25,060 nucleotides of DNA from a virus. This document shows, piece after piece, positions 11,315-20,562 of the stretch. The stretch is from positions 1 through 25,060 of IMG/VR virus record IMGVR_UViG_3300005738_000243; one strand, written 5' to 3'. The notes under the pieces are model-generated. The model did no database searches and was not told the origin of the DNA. It worked only from the letters and a program-made list of their open reading frames with translations. The translations under genes were made by a program, and so were the position numbers. Every line of letters begins with the position of its first letter. Position 1 is the stretch's first letter.

Positions 11315-13852
11315 TTATTTTAGTTGGGAAAGTTTCATATAAATTTTATCTTTTAAGGAAGATATATTGTTGACAAATACGATGTCATCGCCTTTGACAC
11401 CTGTTATTATAACTACATCCTCCTTCTTGGGTAGTTTTTTACCAGAATTAAGGAAGTTTGTCAACCTTTCTTCTCTACTACTGTCTAAAAGAAGACCATT
11501 AACCACACCTTTTTCATCATGTATCTCAAATCTAGCGTATTTGTTACCATTTTGACTAGTTCTTCGAATAGAATCAACTAAGACACCTGTGAATCTCACA
11601 TTTGAACGCTCCATAACGTGTTTGACTTGATCTGAATCTTGAAATTCTTCTGGGTTTTCGTATATCTCTCTGATGTTGTGGGAGTAACTATACCCCAGCA
11701 ACTTCTGCTCAAAATGCCAGTTTGCATACTTGATAGACTTTTTGTTTAATTCAAAGATTTCTTTATATGGGCCGTATTTCTTTTTGAATGTCTCGAAACG
11801 CCTATCCGAAAATAGTTTTTTATTGTCGTCCCCCATCAGATCATCTTTTCTAGCAGCGAAGATACTATCTAGAATACTGTAATTATGTTTTGAACCAAGC
11901 TCTATAAAGTTTCTCTTCTCTCTCTCTGTTAAGATGTTGAATGTTTGAGCTTCTAAAACTAACTTGCATCTGTTTGTGTCTACAAACGAATCGAGTAAAC
12001 CAGCTTGAATAAGACCTGATAGGACACCTATATTCAAACCAGCTTGTTTTGCAACGATGAACACCTCATACTTATTGCTAAAGCTTCCTTCTCTAAACTC
12101 CACAAGGGATTCAATAACCTTCTCAGAAACACCTTTGATTGAATTGAGTCCATATCTAATATTTTTACCTTCAATAGAGAAGTCAACCTTAGAGTTATTC
12201 AAGTCTGGAGGTAAAAGTTCGATATCAAACTTATTTAGTTCTTGACTAATTCTAGAAATCTCTTCGTGAGTATTTGGCTCATACTTTGTATATTTAAGCA
12301 AGCTTAAGAAGAATTCTTTTGGGTGATTAAATTTTAAGTAAACAGTGATAGCCGCTAAGTAAGCGTAACTAATTGAGTGAGATTTGTTGAAGGAATAGTT
12401 CGCAGAATCCTCCGCGACCTTCCACAACACCTCCCCAATAAGTGGGTCAAGATTTCTCTCTCTTATCTTTTTTTCGATCTTAGCTTTCCACTCTGGCATT
12501 TGATCAACCTTTTTCTTTCCGACAATACGGCGAAGCTGCTCAGACTCATCGAGACTGAAACCCACTTTAACCACCATCTTCATTAGCTGCTCTTGATAAA
12601 GAGGGATACCGCCAGTATAGCTAAGAATATCATCAAAGAATTCGTGAACTGATTGAAAATCACCACTCCTTACATACTCTGCATACCTATCTTTAAAATC
12701 TAATGCCCCGGGTCTAGCAATAGCCACAACCGCAGATAACTGCTCTAAGTTCTGTGGGGAGATTTGCTGGCACACCTTGAAGTTGGTATCAGCCTCGATC
12801 TGAAAAAGCCCCTGTGGAGCCTGTAGAGAAGCTAGAGCTGCGTATATAGATGGGTCATGAGGGTTTATGTCATTTACGTTAATCTGAAGCTGCTCACATA
12901 CATCATTAACAACAGATAAAGTCCTTAAACCAAGGATATCAAACTTAACGCTGAGACTGGCGACATCATCCATATCATATCCAGAAACCAAAGCTCCATC
13001 ATTTGTCTTTTGTAGCGGCATAATATCAGACTGATTATAGTAACAAATGGAAACTCCTGATGGATGAACACCTGTATTCTTAATTAAGCCCTGAACCTTC
13101 TTTGCTATTTTAAAACATTTTTTATATTTATCAGCATGATTCTTAAAGGACTCGCTTTCTTCATAAGCTACTTCTAGCTTTGCCACCTTACCAAAATGCT
13201 TAGGGATTGTATCGCTAATTTGGTTTACCTCGACCTCAGACAAACCTTCCACGATCTTACCGCACTCTTTCATGCATAGCTTACCACTAAGAGTATTCAA
13301 GGTTAAAATCTTGGAGGTCTTACCTTTATATTTCTCCTCAATATACGCCATTACCTCTGCTCGACGATCATAGGAGATATCGTTATCAACATCAGCCAAA
13401 AGAGAGCCGTCCAAAAATATCTCTCCATTTGACTCAATCATCTTAGCTCTACTCTTAGAAACAAATCTCTCAAAGAATAAATCGTATTCAATAGGATCAA
13501 TATTGGTGACCCCAAGTAAATAAAGAACTAATGAACCAGCGGCAGAACCACGACCAGCGCCAGTCGGTATGTTTTGACTCTTACAGAAATCAAGAACATC
13601 CCAGTTTAGTAGAATATAATCAACAAACCCAAGCTCATCAAAAATATCCAACTCCATCTTAGAGCGTTCATAATAATCCTTTCTGTTTTCTAACTTTACA
13701 ATACCTTTCTCCCTCAGACCCTTACGAGTGAGTTCAAATAGAATTTGTTTATTAGAGCTGCCATCGCCTAAACCTAAACTGCGAAGAGTCGTATCTGGGA
13801 TGCTGATCTCTGGCAACTTTACGCCAGCGGGAAATGGATTCTTGTATCTCAT
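11315..13852 (-). CDS. dnaE: DNA polymerase III alpha subunit core (DnaE type), lacking the PHP domain
   Basis: An 845-residue DnaE-type catalytic subunit. The palm begins near residue 65 (YYERSKMELDIFDELGFVDY) and has PTGAGRGSAAGSLVLYLLGV (96-115), DPIEYDLFFERF (119-130), the metal-binding ADVDND (153-158; Asp154, Asp156, Asp158) and KFDILGLRTL (303-312; Asp305). Fingers and the tandem helix-hairpin-helix region follow, with an OB-fold near 750-830 (ARFEIHDEKGVVNGLLL). E. coli DnaE is about 1160 residues because it has an N-terminal PHP domain of about 270; here that domain is a separate gene at 14478, and the two proteins together reach 1094 residues. A 20-residue insertion lies just before the catalytic aspartates (135-150). 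It overlaps the exonuclease gene by four bases (ATGA). Active-site residues are intact, so an active polymerase is expected. Confidence 0.95.
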   Translation of the reverse strand: MRYKNPFPAGVKLPEISIPDTTLRSLGLGDGSSNKQILFELTRKGLREKGIVKLENRKDYYERSKMELDIFDELGFVDYILLNWDVLDFCKSQNIPTGAGRGSAAGSLVLYLLGVTNIDPIEYDLFFERFVSKSRAKMIESNGEIFLDGSLLADVDNDISYDRRAEVMAYIEEKYKGKTSKILTLNTLSGKLCMKECGKIVEGLSEVEVNQISDTIPKHFGKVAKLEVAYEESESFKNHADKYKKCFKIAKKVQGLIKNTGVHPSGVSICYYNQSDIMPLQKTNDGALVSGYDMDDVASLSVKFDILGLRTLSVVNDVCEQLQINVNDINPHDPSIYAALASLQAPQGLFQIEADTNFKVCQQISPQNLEQLSAVVAIARPGALDFKDRYAEYVRSGDFQSVHEFFDDILSYTGGIPLYQEQLMKMVVKVGFSLDESEQLRRIVGKKKVDQMPEWKAKIEKKIRERNLDPLIGEVLWKVAEDSANYSFNKSHSISYAYLAAITVYLKFNHPKEFFLSLLKYTKYEPNTHEEISRISQELNKFDIELLPPDLNNSKVDFSIEGKNIRYGLNSIKGVSEKVIESLVEFREGSFSNKYEVFIVAKQAGLNIGVLSGLIQAGLLDSFVDTNRCKLVLEAQTFNILTEREKRNFIELGSKHNYSILDSIFAARKDDLMGDDNKKLFSDRRFETFKKKYGPYKEIFELNKKSIKYANWHFEQKLLGYSYSHNIREIYENPEEFQDSDQVKHVMERSNVRFTGVLVDSIRRTSQNGNKYARFEIHDEKGVVNGLLLDSSREERLTNFLNSGKKLPKKEDVVIITGVKGDDIVFVNNISSLKDKIYMKLSQLK

Positions 13853-14481
13853 ATTTCAATGTCAAAAAGTTGCTTGCGGAAAATCTTGTAATTCATTTCG
13901 ATGTCATACAGAGCATCATGAAGTTTACTAGGGTCATGTTCTATATTGTATTTTTTAAGTAACGCACCCTGAGAAGCCTTAAGACCCCTCTTTCTATAGT
14001 TTAACCAACGATACTGCCAGTAAATAAAATTATTTAAGTCTGGCTCATCTTGAAGCTCGATAGCCTTTGCTAAACTAAGAGTATCTATAATCCTATCCAT
14101 GTAGGAGTAATCGGAGTTAAGGCCCATAGCCTTCATCCAAACATTAATCATATAGACATCAAAGCCTAAAAGATTCTGCCCCACAATCTTATAACTCGGG
14201 TCGTACAAATACTCTTTAAATACATCGAAGACTTCCTTGGGGTCTTTAGAGATTTTATCATGCTGGGCGCGTTTAAAACCTGTGATTCTAGCGGCATCTT
14301 CGGAAATATCTAAATCGGGCCAATGTAAATGCATGTTAAACTTGTCAATTACATTATTGCCTTGCGCTGTAATCCAAGCCACCTGCCAAGGGCGAGACTT
14401 GATGAGGTTAAGACCTTCAGTCTCTGTATCTAAGATTAGATACTTTTGCTTTTTGTCAAATCTAAGTAGTGACTCGTTCAT
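13849..14481 (-). CDS. dnaQ: DnaQ-like DEDDh 3'-5' exonuclease (proofreading subunit)
   Basis: A 210-residue exonuclease with all five catalytic residues: Asp18 and Glu20 in LILDTETEG, Asp108 in IVGQNLLGFD, and His188 and Asp193 in LHDALYDIE, the DEDDh set. This is the family of the Pol III epsilon subunit, which removes mismatched bases from the new 3' end. In bacteria epsilon binds the PHP domain of alpha. Here the exonuclease gene lies exactly between the gene for the PHP domain and that for the polymerase core, with ATGA overlaps on both sides, so the three products should be made together. T4-type or thymidine-kinase-linked exonucleases could look similar, but the place between the two polymerase parts makes proofreading by far the best reading. 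Confidence 0.9.
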   Translation of the reverse strand: MNESLLRFDKKQKYLILDTETEGLNLIKSRPWQVAWITAQGNNVIDKFNMHLHWPDLDISEDAARITGFKRAQHDKISKDPKEVFDVFKEYLYDPSYKIVGQNLLGFDVYMINVWMKAMGLNSDYSYMDRIIDTLSLAKAIELQDEPDLNNFIYWQYRWLNYRKRGLKASQGALLKKYNIEHDPSKLHDALYDIEMNYKIFRKQLFDIEI

Positions 14482-15227
14482 GCTTGTTCTAGGTAAGACT
14501 CAAAAGAGAATTCATCACTTCCAAAGTGAGACAGATTTGGGTTGGAGAGTTGGGACTGTTTACCAAAGTTTCTATTACAGAGGATTTTGTAAGTTTGTAG
14601 AGCTTCGACATCTGATTTATCTTTATAGCAAATTGTTTTTACTTTTGAAGAGGTGGAGGACTGTAGATTTTTTGAGATATACTCTCTCACCTTGTAACTT
14701 AGTAAGTGGTCAAAAGGTAGGTCATTCTTCTCTATCCAAAAGTTAGGGGTTAAAAAACTGAAGTCTGGAATGCAGTTCTTAAGTAAAAAATTATTCTGAT
14801 GAATGAAGCTGTCATAAAATGGAACGACAAACATCAGTTTATCTTCATCCCAGAACTCCTTGAAATTTGCGTAATCGATCTTACCTCCCCCCTCTGTAAA
14901 AGCGAAAGAGTAGATTTTGTTGAGCAACTTACAGCCCTCATCATTTTGAGCAAAGATTATAGACTTATGCTCAGAATCACACTCCTCTTCGGAAATGTCG
15001 TTGCAAAAAGTAAGCCTCAAACCATAGAGTAACTCAAGACCGTTTTCAGAACAGGCATTAAAAGCTTTCATGAAGCTTGTCAAGTTATCCTCCACAAGCA
15101 CCACCCTCTCCATGCCAGCATCTTTGCAGATGTTGATAATTGAGTCTGGGCCTTCGTCAGAAGACTTATTGATTGTTAATATGCTCTTACCTATTGAATA
15201 GGTCGAGCGGAAGATGGGCGTGATCAC
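14478..15227 (-). CDS. Separate PHP domain of DNA polymerase III alpha (degenerate)
   Basis: A 249-residue protein resembling the N-terminal PHP domain of DnaE: FRSTYSIGKSILTINK at residues 6-21 (DnaE has LxxHSxYSLLDG), MERVVLVEDN (39-48, compare ALAITDH), GLELLYGLRLTF (compare IKPIxGxE), IIFAQNDEGCKLLNKIYSFA, GKIDYANFKEF and, near the C-terminus, VEALQTYKILCNR and DEFSFESYLEQA, which correspond to the end of the domain before the polymerase core. The metal-binding His and Asp residues of active PHP domains are missing, so catalysis is unlikely; it is probably structural and binds the exonuclease. The start is GTG at 15227 because an in-frame TGA lies two codons upstream. Stop overlaps the exonuclease start. 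Confidence 0.75.
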   Translation of the reverse strand: MITPIFRSTYSIGKSILTINKSSDEGPDSIINICKDAGMERVVLVEDNLTSFMKAFNACSENGLELLYGLRLTFCNDISEEECDSEHKSIIFAQNDEGCKLLNKIYSFAFTEGGGKIDYANFKEFWDEDKLMFVVPFYDSFIHQNNFLLKNCIPDFSFLTPNFWIEKNDLPFDHLLSYKVREYISKNLQSSTSSKVKTICYKDKSDVEALQTYKILCNRNFGKQSQLSNPNLSHFGSDEFSFESYLEQA

Positions 15228-15257: not shown

Positions 15258-16283
15258 TCAAGAGGAATGTGCAGGGCAACCTGCATAATATTTCATCTCG
15301 TAGCTACCCCCTTCAGGAACCATCTCTTCAGTGAATTCCTCTTCGAAGCAAGAGCGAGAAAAATGACCTTCTGAATTTTTAATCTCATAATAGAAGAAAT
15401 CAAATTTCATCCCACAATGCCATTTTTTAGTACCGTCTTTTTTAAGCTCTCCTTTTTTAGTGGCGAAACCACATAGGAGCTTCTTACTAAAAGATTTATC
15501 TGTGGGAAACCCTTGGTAAGCAGCCATATTACCTCTCGCGTTTTCTTCTGAAAAATTATCCAGATACCTTTGTATTTCTGTCAGGTGCAACTCAAAACCT
15601 CTAAGGTCATCTTTATCCAAAGGCTGCATTCTCATGACACCACTTTTTTTAGCTTCGGGATTTAATTCAAATTTTAAGAATAAAAATTCACTCTGCTTAT
15701 TTGTGTATTCTGGGAAGAGGTGATCAACTGCCAAGCTGTACATCAGATCTTGTAGATTATCTTCAGCGTCTTTCCCTTTGAAGACTTCTTTACTCGTTTT
15801 GAAATCTCTGATGAGCGCAAATTTTTCGCCCTTATAAAGAAAAAGCTTATCAATAAAACCACGAATCCTATACCGTACATCGCCTTCGTTTTTAACGAGG
15901 TCAAAATCTTGTTCAGAAAGCCCTTCTGTGAGTCCTTTAAGGTCATTACCAAAGAAATCGTAGTTCAATCCATTATACGTCATTTCTTTGATTAATTCAA
16001 TATTTTCATCATCATCTACACCTTCACGAATAGCGTGTTTCATAATCAACCGCTTAATAGAAGGGACGGCGAAAACATCTTGAGATTTAATAATCTTGTT
16101 GAAATATTTTTTTCTTTTCTTTTCTCCTAAGAGTTCGAAAATTAAGTGGCAAATAGAACCTCTTTTAGCTCCATCATTACTAGCGTCTGGAAGTTTTAAT
16201 TTATATTTGCACCAGTATAGCCAAGAACAACCCTCTACGGTTTTAATTCTACTTGCCGAGAGAGCTGTTTTAGGATTATCCAT
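15258..16283 (-). CDS. Cas4/RecB-type PD-(D/E)XK nuclease, possibly iron-sulfur
   Basis: A 341-residue protein with the RecB/Cas4 nuclease pattern: a cysteine-bearing N-terminus SRIKTVEGCSWLYWCKYKLK (Cys19, Cys25), GAKRGSICHLIFELL with His46, RGFIDKLF with Asp145, LIRDFKTSK with Asp160 and Lys162, and LQDLMYSLAVD with Gln178 and Tyr182. Those are the H, D, DxK and QxxxY elements of a two-metal DNA nuclease. More cysteines near the C-terminus (for example LLCGF, WHCGMK, SRSCFEE, YAGCPAH) could complete a 4Fe-4S cluster as in Cas4 and AddB, but their spacing is not standard. No CRISPR genes are present; a role in recombination or end processing with the RecA and polymerase genes is more likely. 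It overlaps the primase gene by eight bases. Confidence 0.8.
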   Translation of the reverse strand: MDNPKTALSASRIKTVEGCSWLYWCKYKLKLPDASNDGAKRGSICHLIFELLGEKKRKKYFNKIIKSQDVFAVPSIKRLIMKHAIREGVDDDENIELIKEMTYNGLNYDFFGNDLKGLTEGLSEQDFDLVKNEGDVRYRIRGFIDKLFLYKGEKFALIRDFKTSKEVFKGKDAEDNLQDLMYSLAVDHLFPEYTNKQSEFLFLKFELNPEAKKSGVMRMQPLDKDDLRGFELHLTEIQRYLDNFSEENARGNMAAYQGFPTDKSFSKKLLCGFATKKGELKKDGTKKWHCGMKFDFFYYEIKNSEGHFSRSCFEEEFTEEMVPEGGSYEMKYYAGCPAHSS

Positions 16284-17331
16284 CTATCTTGCTTGCTGTT
16301 TTTATTTCCGTTTTAGTAAAAGAATATTTATTCTTAGATACAAAGTCGGTTATAAATTTACGTTGATCTTCTTGATTGAGTTCCTTATCCAACCACTTAT
16401 TGATATTATAACCATTTTGGTGACATTCTCCAAAATCATTTCCTTTTTCTGGAAGTTTGATTGTCAAAACATCCAGATCAAAGTGCAGGGATAATTTTAA
16501 ATAATTTTTTATTGCTGCGATTAATCCCCTATTTTCTTTAGAATTAGAATCGTTATTAGTGGAGATGAAGATATCATCGAGAACTTTACTGGAAAGGTAG
16601 TTAATAATGCTGGGGCTAGCTGATAAACCAAATAGAACTAAAACATTTTTAACACCTTGATCATATAGAGCCATAGCATCACCAATACTCTCTACGAGAA
16701 TGACCTGAGAGGTTCTTTCAATCTCAGAATCACACTCATTACCTTCAACATGAGCAGGATAAGCCCAAGTAGTCTTTTTGCCTATGTGTTTCCATTTAGG
16801 GTAATCGTTATTGTCGTCAATCTTGCGACCAGAGAAACCAATGATCTGTTTATGCTCGTTATAAATAGGGAAGACCATTCGCCTATACATTTTACCAACA
16901 CCAGCTAACCCCACCTTGAAGCACTTTTGTGTCGCTTCTGAGATTCCTTTATCTGAGTAAAATTTATAATTAGGGAATAGTTTAGACAAAACGTCTTCCG
17001 AGTAAGTTTTTTCCATTTGAATTTTATCTACTTTTACGTGGTTGAGTGGGCCTTCTTTTTTGATCCTTTCAAGAACATCTGAGAACATGCTTTGATCATT
17101 TGTAGTTAGTTTTACTAAAGCCTCAAAAGGTTTGCACCCTTTGTTATCTACAAAATCCATCCAGACCCCAGTGTTTTTATAAATCTTTACTGCTGTAGTA
17201 TTATCGCCCTCTCTATACAGAGCTTTGGTTCTCCAATGATCTCCAGAATCAATAAGGCTATAACCTAAAGACTCAAGTATCAATTGATAGTCTTCTACGC
17301 TAACTGAAGTCTGGGGCTGTTTCGTGTCCAT
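16276..17331 (-). CDS. Toprim DNA primase without zinc-binding cysteines
   Basis: A 351-residue protein made of a CHC2-like N-terminal module (about 15-75, with RTKALYREGDNTTAVKIYK and GVWMDFVDNKG), the primase linker FPIYNEHKQIIGFSGRKI (154-171), and a Toprim domain with VILVESIGDAMALYDQG (Glu214), NVLVLFGLS and a second acidic site DIFISTNNDSN (Asp261), ending near KLPEKGNDFGE. The match to DnaG-type primases, which make RNA primers for the polymerase and bind the DnaB helicase, is clear. The N-terminal module keeps its shape but has lost the zinc-binding Cys/His, and the Toprim DxD is reduced to one Asp, so metal binding may differ. It begins 32 bases inside the end of the helicase gene, which supports a helicase-primase pair. 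Confidence 0.85.
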   Translation of the reverse strand: MDTKQPQTSVSVEDYQLILESLGYSLIDSGDHWRTKALYREGDNTTAVKIYKNTGVWMDFVDNKGCKPFEALVKLTTNDQSMFSDVLERIKKEGPLNHVKVDKIQMEKTYSEDVLSKLFPNYKFYSDKGISEATQKCFKVGLAGVGKMYRRMVFPIYNEHKQIIGFSGRKIDDNNDYPKWKHIGKKTTWAYPAHVEGNECDSEIERTSQVILVESIGDAMALYDQGVKNVLVLFGLSASPSIINYLSSKVLDDIFISTNNDSNSKENRGLIAAIKNYLKLSLHFDLDVLTIKLPEKGNDFGECHQNGYNINKWLDKELNQEDQRKFITDFVSKNKYSFTKTEIKTASKIDG

Positions 17332-18802
17332 CTTGTGCTAAATCTTCATCTCCATTTCTCACTCTTACAATATCCCTTAAGTCTCCGCATTCAGTAATAT
17401 TGAAATTATGAAAGCTTAAGTTAATAAAGTTTCTACGTAACGAGTCATCAACTTGAATAGGTTCAATTGCACCAGCAATATCTTGACCTAAGTGTCGAGA
17501 TTTTACATTGATCAATTTATGCGTACCGAACCTTTGACCTTCTAATTCAATTTCATCTTCTGTCTTCTTACGAAGAATAAACATGTGGGAACAGAACTGA
17601 GTAATTCGATCTGATAAACTAACAACGCTTTCATCATCAATGATGTTTTGAGAATTTCTGTTATTTGTGATGCCACTCCTATTGGACTGAACAGAAGTGA
17701 TCATCGGTATAATTGGTAGGCCGTCCACCAGAATCTCTTTTTGGATACACTTCTTAAACTTGTCTACCATCTCACCAACAACCTGCCATTCGTTTTTGTT
17801 GCTAGCTTCGCTTGTTGTTTTGATATAATCAAAAGAGAAAACCATTGGGTTCCCTCGTCCCACTTGAGAAAAGTAAAATCTTTTAAGTGAATTAATCATA
17901 GCATCCACATCCATGCCACCCACATTATAATAATAGAACTTTAGCTTTTTTACTCTGGGCCAGACAGACTGAACTTTTTGGACTACATCCTGTCCAGCTT
18001 GTCTCCATTTACCACTCTCAAGTAAATGCATGGGGACTCCAGATAAAGCAGCGCATTGACGCATCATCAGTTCTTGTTTACTCATCTCTCCATTATCAAA
18101 ATGAAGAATTGGTACACCATATTCATCTCCAACTTTGCTAGCGTAATCCATGCAGAACTGGGTTTTACCAACTCCTGAACGAGCTACAACAACTGTAATA
18201 TTGCCGGGCCTTAAAAGTGATCCATAAATATCATTTATCTTTTTGTGTGGCCCCATCATTCCAAACTCAGTAACAGGATTGTTACCAAGCTCCTCGATAA
18301 CATCCTCCATCTCATCATAGATGTTTGTTGGAACATCATTTCCAATCTCATACAGATTGATTCTAGAGTTGTAAACGTTATCAGCAATCTCTACAATCTC
18401 GCGATAAGAAGATTCTGGAGGCATCGCCTTCATCTTTTTGGATATCTCCTGAGAGGAGTCCATGATCTCACGACGAATTGTATACTTCTTTAATTCCCTA
18501 GCTGTTTTAATTACATTACCAGCGGGTACTTTACGCATACCAAGAGACTTGATATACTCCGCTGGTGTGATGCCTTCAAAATTCAATCCAACGTCATTAA
18601 CTCTTTGGGCTATAATAACTTCATCTACTTCATCCCCAGCATTAATAGCTTGCTGAATTACCCTGAAGATAGTCCCATGAAGGGCTGTATTCTCTGAGTA
18701 AAAATCTTTAGGACTAACAAAATTATTAATCTCAACTAGCATACTAGGGTCTTTCAAAAGACCCGCGAGTAATTGTTTTTCGAGTTCGTAATTATAGATC
18801 AT
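17300..18802 (-). CDS. dnaB: DnaB-like replicative DNA helicase
   Basis: A 500-residue DnaB-type helicase. The N-terminal helical domain starts NYELEKQLLAGLLKDPSML, the usual DnaB opening, and the RecA-like motor contains the Walker A ARSGVGKT (207-214), HFDNGEMSKQELMMRQCA (the H1a-like ExS element), Walker B FSFDYIK and an Arg-rich C-terminal region around KSRHLGQDIAG. It unwinds the parental duplex ahead of the polymerase as a hexamer. I chose the ATG at 18802; the longer frame beginning at 18847 starts with TTG and would add 15 unrelated residues while overlapping the preceding gene by 56 bases, whereas 18802 gives an 11-base overlap and a purine tract upstream. The C-terminal 40 residues are acidic and may contact a partner. 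Confidence 0.92.
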   Translation of the reverse strand: MIYNYELEKQLLAGLLKDPSMLVEINNFVSPKDFYSENTALHGTIFRVIQQAINAGDEVDEVIIAQRVNDVGLNFEGITPAEYIKSLGMRKVPAGNVIKTARELKKYTIRREIMDSSQEISKKMKAMPPESSYREIVEIADNVYNSRINLYEIGNDVPTNIYDEMEDVIEELGNNPVTEFGMMGPHKKINDIYGSLLRPGNITVVVARSGVGKTQFCMDYASKVGDEYGVPILHFDNGEMSKQELMMRQCAALSGVPMHLLESGKWRQAGQDVVQKVQSVWPRVKKLKFYYYNVGGMDVDAMINSLKRFYFSQVGRGNPMVFSFDYIKTTSEASNKNEWQVVGEMVDKFKKCIQKEILVDGLPIIPMITSVQSNRSGITNNRNSQNIIDDESVVSLSDRITQFCSHMFILRKKTEDEIELEGQRFGTHKLINVKSRHLGQDIAGAIEPIQVDDSLRRNFINLSFHNFNITECGDLRDIVRVRNGDEDLAQDGHETAPDFS

Positions 18803-19034
18803 TGTAATCTTCTTTATCGCTTTCGTTGCTAAGTAGCCACTGCTCAAGAGTTTTTCTTAATCCCAGTTCTACGACGGTGGAATCAAACTTTGAAAAAATA
18901 GTGGGAGAGCCATTCTCACTACAGTTACATAAAATAAAACCTTTGTATTTATCTGAACCTCCTGAGAGTTCATAAAGTTTTTCTAGCAAATTTTCTGGCA
19001 ATTCAAATTCTGGAGCGTCTTCGTCTTGGTTCAT
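18792..19034 (-). CDS. Small acidic hypothetical protein
   Basis: An 80-residue acidic protein with Asp/Glu-rich ends (MNQDEDAPEFELPENLLEKL at the start, ESDKEDYNDL at the end) around a small core, KGFILCNCSENGSPTIFSKF and LGLRKTLEQWL. The core could be a mini beta-sheet plus helix; there is no known motif, although the CNC pair is noticeable. Its start overlaps the stop of the nuclease gene (ATGA) and its end overlaps the helicase start by 11 bases, so it is co-translated with the replication genes. The acidic nature and location fit an adaptor or DNA-mimic protein, but that is only a possibility. Confidence 0.65.
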   Translation of the reverse strand: MNQDEDAPEFELPENLLEKLYELSGGSDKYKGFILCNCSENGSPTIFSKFDSTVVELGLRKTLEQWLLSNESDKEDYNDL

Positions 19035-19438
19035 AAATAAATTTCTTGGTCTTCGAAAAAAGATGCATTGACAACATCTTGTGGGTAAATCTCTACGAGG
19101 TTTATATTATTGATTTCGCAGAAGTCTAGCTTTTTTTTGTCCCTTTTTAATTGATCAACATACTTTAGCCTGTTACCATGAAAATGCTTTACATATTTAA
19201 TGTGCTGACCACCCTGAACTTCAATAGCTATTTTTTTATTAGCATTATAGAAGTCTAGTGAAAGTCTTGTTCCTACGATCCTGAATTCTTCGAAAACAAT
19301 ATCGTGTTCCCAATAAGGCATTAAGAAATCTTTTACACCTTTTTGAAATTTACTCCTGCTTCCAGCAGTCCAGTCTATTAAATACTTTTTGGGGTTTTTT
19401 AAGTTCCTTTGTTTGTTGTACAAATCATAGAACTTCAT
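19031..19438 (-). CDS. Vsr/DUF559-like endonuclease fold protein
   Basis: A 135-residue protein with the core of PD-(D/E)XK endonucleases of the Vsr/DUF559 kind: strand LSLDFYNANKKIAIEVQGGQH (59-79) carries Asp62, Glu73 and Gln75 and ends in the typical QGxQH, followed by a helix with DQLKRDKKKLDFCEINNINLVEI (95-117). In this fold the acidic residues and a Lys/Gln hold the metal for DNA cleavage. Vsr corrects T:G mismatches by nicking; related phage proteins include homing or repair endonucleases. It sits directly after recA, its ATG overlapping that stop (ATGA), which favours recombination or repair over selfish homing. The substrate cannot be determined from the sequence. Confidence 0.75.
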   Translation of the reverse strand: MKFYDLYNKQRNLKNPKKYLIDWTAGSRSKFQKGVKDFLMPYWEHDIVFEEFRIVGTRLSLDFYNANKKIAIEVQGGQHIKYVKHFHGNRLKYVDQLKRDKKKLDFCEINNINLVEIYPQDVVNASFFEDQEIYL

Positions 19439-20562
19439 GAGACCTCACCAATAGCATTCTTAAAATAAGTAACCAAAAAATCACACAGATCTTGATTCTC
19501 TTCAATGAAACTAAAAAGTTTATTATCTCCTTGTACTTTATCTGGGATTTCGAATTCAGTATCTTCAATCAGTTCTTTAAAGTCTTCTGTAAAGGAAATC
19601 CAAGGGCCAGCTTTTTTGACAAACTCCCAAGCGTATAGTAAATCAACTATCTCTTTTTCCACCCAGATCGATGTGCCATTTTTACGGCCATACCTAATTG
19701 GATAGCTCACTACCATATTGGTTTTCTCGTTGGGGGATTTTTTAACTACCACTTTAGCGACATGACCAATAGCAGGATTCTTTGAGTCCATTTTCTTAAT
19801 CGACGCATTCTTTAGAATGTTGTCCCCAGCGTATCTAGCTTCGAATTGAATAATCCAATTAGCAAAGTGCAACAAAGCATTTCCTCCAGTAGCCGTAGTC
19901 TGTCTGACTGGAGCTTTGGAATATGGATCTAGCTTAATATCAGCTCTAACTTGGGAAATAAAGATTGCCATATGACCTCTTTTTGCGAGAGCAATTGACA
20001 TCTTCTTCATAAATGTGCCAGCGATAACTGCACCCCCAGCAACTTTAGCTGAGTCTTCGAAGCTCTTATTGATATCGTTTTTAGTGATTAAGCCATCGAC
20101 AGAATCCAACAAGAAACAGTATTTCTTATTACTATCGTTCTTAGAAACAAGTTCTCGGAAAAGCTCTACAACAGTCTCGTAAATATTAGATTCAAAAACA
20201 AAACAAGTGCCATCAACCCATTCTTCAGCGGTATACACAAACTTCACACCGCTCCTTTCCCTCATTTCTGGAGAAAGTCTTCCTTCAGCTTTTACAAAAA
20301 CACCTTTAGAATTTGGGATTTGTTTCAAGAAATTTTTCATAACCTCAAGAGATTCTGAAGTCTTACCTCCTTCATTCATACCTACGAATCTATGAAGTCC
20401 GGGTCCGAAGCCCCCTCCTAACTGTAGGTCAAACTGAAGCGAGCCACTTGACACTTTATAATTAATCTCCTCTTCAAAATTATAATGGTCTTCTTTATTG
20501 GCTTTTAAAAAACTACCCATTAACTTTTGATCGTCTTGCGTTTCTTTGGTGGCTTTACTCAT
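19435..20562 (-). CDS. recA: RecA-like recombinase
   Basis: A 375-residue RecA-family strand-exchange protein. Walker A is GMNEGGKT (61-68), the catalytic glutamate is Glu93 in KAEGRLSP, Walker B is YCFLLDSVDGL (148-158, Asp153), and the DNA-binding region has FISQVRADIKLD and TTATGGNALLHFA (222-234), the equivalents of RecA L1/L2 regions. It coats single-stranded DNA and pairs it with homologous duplex. Compared with E. coli RecA (353 residues) it is slightly longer, and the C-terminal 60 residues (from about 315) are divergent and acidic in part. A Shine-Dalgarno AAGGA lies 10 bases before the ATG, which is 8 bases inside the zinc-ribbon gene's end. RecA proteins are common in large phages. 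Replication-linked recombination is the likely job. Confidence 0.92.
   Translation of the reverse strand: MSKATKETQDDQKLMGSFLKANKEDHYNFEEEINYKVSSGSLQFDLQLGGGFGPGLHRFVGMNEGGKTSESLEVMKNFLKQIPNSKGVFVKAEGRLSPEMRERSGVKFVYTAEEWVDGTCFVFESNIYETVVELFRELVSKNDSNKKYCFLLDSVDGLITKNDINKSFEDSAKVAGGAVIAGTFMKKMSIALAKRGHMAIFISQVRADIKLDPYSKAPVRQTTATGGNALLHFANWIIQFEARYAGDNILKNASIKKMDSKNPAIGHVAKVVVKKSPNEKTNMVVSYPIRYGRKNGTSIWVEKEIVDLLYAWEFVKKAGPWISFTEDFKELIEDTEFEIPDKVQGDNKLFSFIEENQDLCDFLVTYFKNAIGEVS

Follow-up and report, generated by a model that had tools for sequence, protein, structure and literature searches.

Does the virus record IMGVR_UViG_3300005738_000243 encode a DNA polymerase III alpha subunit divided into separate proteins, and if so, does it stand between the DnaE and PolC types or descend from a fused polymerase that broke apart? 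The window that we analysed, i.e., the whole stretch of 25,060 nucleotides covering positions 1 to 25,060 of this IMG/VR record, contains on its minus strand three adjacent open reading frames (ORFs) joined by ATGA overlaps, which a sequence-only reading had described as a PHP-like domain, a DEDDh exonuclease and a DnaE core without PHP. The ORF coordinates and Pfam matches confirmed this description:

14478..15227, minus strand: stand-alone PHP domain, DnaE-type by its structure model; 249 amino acids (aa), GTG start, metal site lost; Pfam PHP 1.3e-7
14808..14822, minus strand: PFYDS motif, PHP residues 136-140, identical in 110/110 homologues and near a former metal-ligand loop
14478..14481, minus strand: PHP-exonuclease stop/start overlap ATGA, 4 bases, read from the sequence
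13849..14481, minus strand: DEDDh 3'-5' exonuclease, 210 aa; Pfam RNase_T 3e-15; D18, E20, D108, H188, D193
13849..13852, minus strand: exonuclease-core stop/start overlap ATGA, 4 bases, read from the sequence
11315..13852, minus strand: PHP-less DnaE-type polymerase core, 845 aa; palm, thumb, fingers, HhH, OB; D154, D156, D305

The core matches Pfam DNA_pol3_alpha (3.6e-58), DNA_pol3_finger (1.7e-29) and HHH_6 (4.8e-19), and a Pfam scan of its 845 aa gave no PHP match. We consider it likely that these genes encode a DnaE-type, C-family replicase whose alpha subunit has come apart at the PHP/palm linker; the seam holds the proofreader gene, and the pieces would reassemble as three chains. The polymerase is DnaE-type by family and apparently new by architecture, in that its PHP is a separate gene.

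A whole PHP domain that has lost its metal site

The sequence-only reading had allowed that the 249-aa protein might not be a PHP domain, and its AlphaFold2 model speaks against this. The model, built from a 30-row alignment, has a predicted local distance difference test score (pLDDT) of 89.6 and a predicted template modelling score (pTM) of 0.87, and it matches DnaE PHP domains over its whole length: residues 1-249 align with residues 5-247 of E. coli DnaE and 6-258 of Taq DnaE (Z ~22, 229-232 residues), whereas stand-alone PHP enzymes reach a Z of 8 to 13 only. Judged by this model, the protein is a whole, uninterrupted DnaE-type PHP domain. A sequence search of the PDB with only the PHP protein as query found nothing, and tblastn against named phages returned only weak matches, to fused PHPs.

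An active PHP is defined by the nine-residue ligand set HHDHEH[C/H]DH (PMC12926913). No conserved His occupies any of these nine positions in the alignment of the free PHP and its homologues; the ligand Glu is replaced by Arg71 in 108/110 homologues and one ligand His by Lys88 in 109/110. Since this ligand set is lost, the free PHP is most likely a catalytically dead, structural protein like the PHP of E. coli DnaE, which is also metal-dead.

The core is of the DnaE type and begins after the PHP/palm linker

The three catalytic Asp residues of the core (D154, D156 and D305) are invariant in 102/102 homologues. The core model (pLDDT 87.5) aligns with E. coli DnaE from residues 269-271 onward, and its residues 731-837 align with OB folds, Taq (Thermus) DnaE being matched up to residue 1122. 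As the PHP model corresponds to E. coli residues 5-247 and the core model to residue 269 on, the models place the break in the PHP/palm linker, at about E. coli 248-268, with no domain predicted to be missing there. At its other end the core stops after the OB domain, without the C-terminal tau-binding domain that forms part of the DnaE layout.

The sequence-only reading had further held that the three parts follow the same order as in PolC, and that they could represent a stage midway from DnaE plus DnaQ to PolC, or the reverse. A surviving intermediate between DnaE with a separate exonuclease and PolC would account for the adjacency of PHP, exonuclease and core in the window, all of which are also present in PolC of Gram-positive bacteria, and for the best solved-structure match of the exonuclease profile, the PolC-type exonuclease 2p1j (1.7e-7). 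However, PolC is one chain with its exonuclease inside the PHP domain, whereas here the exonuclease follows a whole PHP and precedes the core, so the order is not the same. In the structure alignment, the PHP of PolC spans residues 339-785 with the exonuclease inserted, while that of the window is contiguous. The OB domain is N-terminal in PolC and lies C-terminal to the fingers/HhH region in the window core, and the extra N-terminal domain of PolC is absent from the window proteins. The core profile scores 408 bits against the best DnaE (Thermus) and only 43 bits against the best PolC, and its NCBIfam matches are to DnaE-type models only, with none to the PolC-type (Gram-positive) models. The exonuclease matches the NCBIfam DnaQ epsilon model (7e-15) ahead of PolC (5e-12); it matches both kinds of model and says little on this point. 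The reading of the window polymerase as a PolC INTERMEDIATE is not supported, and a surviving form of this kind is very improbable.

The division is conserved and under purifying selection

Loci, to which we gave L numbers, were collected by scanning IMG/VR with the core and PHP, and from bacterial genomes (phage-like contigs binned in metagenome-assembled genomes, MAGs). The 191 fetched loci with all three genes amount to 133 distinct ones by sequence tag, some contigs having been returned twice. All 191 keep the order PHP-exonuclease-core with the genes always separate and none fused, and a PHP scan of IMG/VR indicates that at least 561 viral stretches encode a stand-alone PHP.

The break could in principle be an artefact or be undone in expression, through a sequencing error, a programmed frameshift or trans-splicing to one chain; the first of these, as an assembly frameshift, had been named in the sequence-only reading as what might overturn it. 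Both junction overlaps would suit -1 frameshifting, and split inteins do occur elsewhere in the core of some relatives. However, the same break recurs throughout the 191 loci, including L021, a contig from another record with 99% identity, in which the three genes are likewise separate and identically ordered. Moreover, in about 30 loci additional genes, spanning up to 4.4 kb, occupy one seam or both, and frameshift fusion is impossible there because other genes separate the parts. In contrast to the cyanobacterial split-intein DnaE, with IntN/IntC at the break, the window junctions showed no intein sequence, either at the PHP end or at the core end. We therefore regard an artefactual or repaired break as extremely improbable.

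The seam cargo is varied, being found in the PHP-exonuclease seam in L035, L037, L039, L049 and L087 and in the exonuclease-core seam in L006 and L117; read by eye, it includes a GMP-reductase-like protein and an FkbM-like methyltransferase. In L055, L084, L151, L161 and L164 a split intein (IntN about 95 aa; IntC 40 aa, ending HNFY..G.V.SN|S) interrupts the core as well, at FNK|SHS; its Pfam Hint/Intein_splicing matches are below the curated cut-off. The cyanobacterial split intein of DnaE sits 3-4 residues away from this site. Between the core halves lie a minus-strand GIY-YIG-nuclease-like ORF (L055, L151), a plus-strand nuclease-like ORF (L161, L164) or 12 bases only (L084).

The PHP, exonuclease and core genes are all under strong purifying selection, with omega in close pairs of about 0.01-0.17 across the three genes and 0.01-0.10 for PHP. 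Synonymous divergence (dS) is unequal among PHP, exonuclease and core in the same contig pair (e.g. 0.67, 1.69 and 0.97; L200 vs L201/L202, L209 vs L211), and since it differs between the three genes within one pair, it suggests single-gene exchange by recombination in these contigs. Contigs of the group (L078-L089) were binned in MAGs of Flavobacteriaceae, Saprospiraceae, Verrucomicrobiales, Woesebacteria and even Lokiarchaeota, assignments that are likely to be binning contamination.

Proposed assembly of the three products

In the arrangement that we favour, the genes, through their ATGA overlaps, probably undergo coupled translation, and the three products would assemble into one replicase that copies the viral genome. 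The metal-dead PHP would dock as a structural subunit on the palm/thumb of the core, in the place of the fused PHP in DnaE; the DEDDh protein, whose catalytic set (D-E, D, H, D) is complete in its 210 aa and invariant in 111/111 homologues (D18, E20, D108, H188 and D193), would supply proofreading, and the 845-aa core would polymerise. We infer assembly because the operon order is constant, the PHP fold is complete and PHP divergence tracks that of the core best among the genes tested (r 0.91 in one gene set and 0.88 in another), although this mirror-tree correlation barely discriminates against a background r of 0.7-0.97.

Alternatively, the free PHP may have left the polymerase and been recruited as an independent protein (e.g. 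an adaptor or a nucleic-acid-binding protein), the core working alone. That PHP is a separate gene with its metal site gone fits this, as do L053 and L241, where the PHP-exonuclease pair lies 4.4 kb away from the core. Such independence is nevertheless unlikely, as the order with the core is constant down to about 40% core identity, the PHP retains a full DnaE-type fold whose linker end adjoins the core start, its divergence follows that of the core, and C-family polymerases otherwise carry PHP, which is described as universally present among them (PMC12926913).

Several observations weigh against assembly as three chains. The exonuclease ends 17 residues past its last catalytic Asp and has no counterpart of the C-terminal tail through which E. 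coli epsilon binds PHP, so its docking must differ from that in E. coli. PHP and exonuclease distances correlate at r 0.76-0.85, below PHP and core. A scan for a clamp-binding motif found none of the QxxLF kind kept in the position where it would be expected, and no beta-clamp gene (PF00712) was found in ten long relatives, which are possibly fragments; the same ten gave one match to a T4-type clamp (PF02916), below the cut-off. The PHP is a possible, putative docking site for the exonuclease, and the N-terminal LLRF of the latter, in which Leu6 is conserved in 110/111 and Arg7 in 107/111 homologues, may be guessed to be a candidate contact.

Probable origin by one old fission

The sequence-only reading had offered, as its other option, a later fission of a fused polymerase, and this is the one that the comparison bears out. 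In midpoint-rooted trees, which contain no PolC rows (PolC being assessed from profile scores and structure), the three-gene clade is monophyletic with a support of 100/100, despite core identity down to about 40%. In every other DnaE examined, PHP shares one chain with at least the palm, and among the lineages examined a stand-alone PHP subunit is found only in the clade of the window.

The fused relatives include L246, which shares with the window the order UvsX, small nuclease, DnaB, primase, PD-(D/E)XK and DnaE at 20-34% identity. As this syntenic relative keeps PHP on the palm, the comparison favours fusion as the ancestral state. The relation of the clade to L245-L247, including L246 as sister, is weakly supported (84/62). 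The DnaE of L246 (6848-11282) is itself split between palm and fingers by a seam that contains an RNase HII gene; by eye, its palm-fused PHP looks metal-competent.

Since the clade is monophyletic at 100/100 while its cores fall to such low identity, the best reading is that fission took place once, early, before a large clade of uncultivated phages, known from metagenomes, diversified, and has been kept since.

Comparison with other DnaE systems

Bacterial DnaE (E. coli/Thermus) with DnaQ epsilon shares with the window the PHP fold, the palm-thumb-fingers-HhH-OB order, the catalytic Asp residues and a separate DEDDh exonuclease. It differs in that PHP is not a separate protein and no exonuclease gene lies between PHP and core, while the window exonuclease lacks the epsilon tail and the window core the tau-binding C-terminal domain. 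In Pbunavirus and Bcepfunavirus (phages KPP12 and Maja), a DEDDh exonuclease gene likewise touches the DnaE gene directly upstream, but PHP is still fused to the polymerase, giving the order exonuclease then PHP-core. The window exonuclease itself has its sole match among named phages in Microbacterium phages (27%).

DnaE is also encoded by two genes in Cellulophaga phi13:1/phiST, Corynebacterium phage P1201, L244, L245/L247 and L246. Unlike in the window, the cut in these polymerases falls within the palm or separates palm from fingers, PHP staying on the N-terminal part: in phi13:1 and L244 it comes after the GRGS motif and before the catalytic Asp, and in P1201, L245/L247 and L246 past the third catalytic Asp. 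Because phi13:1 is sister to the unsplit DAC22 (100/100), DnaE fission is recurrent in phages.

The seam of L245 (3114-9743) and L247 holds a uracil-DNA glycosylase (UDG) gene and two DEDDh exonuclease genes: in this different phage lineage, too, genes of the proofreading type sit within a broken DnaE. A UDG also occurs in L174 (2987-6379; Pseudomonas phage ZY21), as a C-terminal domain of DnaE (Pfam UDG 2.1e-12, residues 978-1107).

Two candidates for a free PHP or a PHP-lacking polymerase elsewhere were rejected. P1201 gp60, a "putative phosphoesterase", is calcineurin-like by eye, and PHP is carried by gp59; phrog_11165 begins after PHP, but the nearest records opened, Outis and GRU1, are fused.

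Genomic neighbourhood

The replication block runs in the order UvsX-like recombinase, DnaB-like helicase, DnaG-like primase, PD-(D/E)XK nuclease, PHP, exonuclease, core and Clp-like ATPase, and the window has no nucleotide-level match to isolated phages. The genes upstream of the three are:

15258..16283, minus strand: PD-(D/E)XK nuclease, directly upstream of the PHP gene; Pfam 1.3e-15; found in 176 loci and syntenic in most relatives
16276..17331, minus strand: DnaG-like primase; phrog_47 7e-18
17300..18847, minus strand: DnaB-like replicative helicase; phrog_19 2.3e-43
19435..20562, minus strand: UvsX/RecA-like recombinase; phrog_97 1.4e-35

Between the UvsX and DnaB genes, a 135-aa protein at 19031-19438 has homing-endonuclease-like matches (phrog_559 3e-14). 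As its counterpart is kept at the same place in the distant L246 (34% identity), it may be a resident replication/recombination nuclease instead of a mobile one.

Implications

All C-family replicases are described as carrying a PHP domain (PMC12926913). Only a handful of phage homologues are noted in PMC3919608. Our search of the open-access literature found nothing on a separate PHP or a split DnaE in phages. We lean towards the view that an obligate, dead and separate PHP subunit holds the core and proofreader together throughout this phage lineage, which would make the complex a three-chain alpha-epsilon, encoded by four genes where the split intein is present, and the first naturally PHP-separated DnaE.

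PHP is often inactive in C-family replicases, and the reason for its retention is an old question. With a naturally free, dead and strongly selected PHP beside an intact proofreader and core, the parts could be added or omitted singly in vitro without an engineered break, to see whether PHP serves to stabilise the core, to recruit the exonuclease or to switch between synthesis and proofreading. The three-gene polymerase also adds to the evidence that DnaE fission is recurrent in phages.

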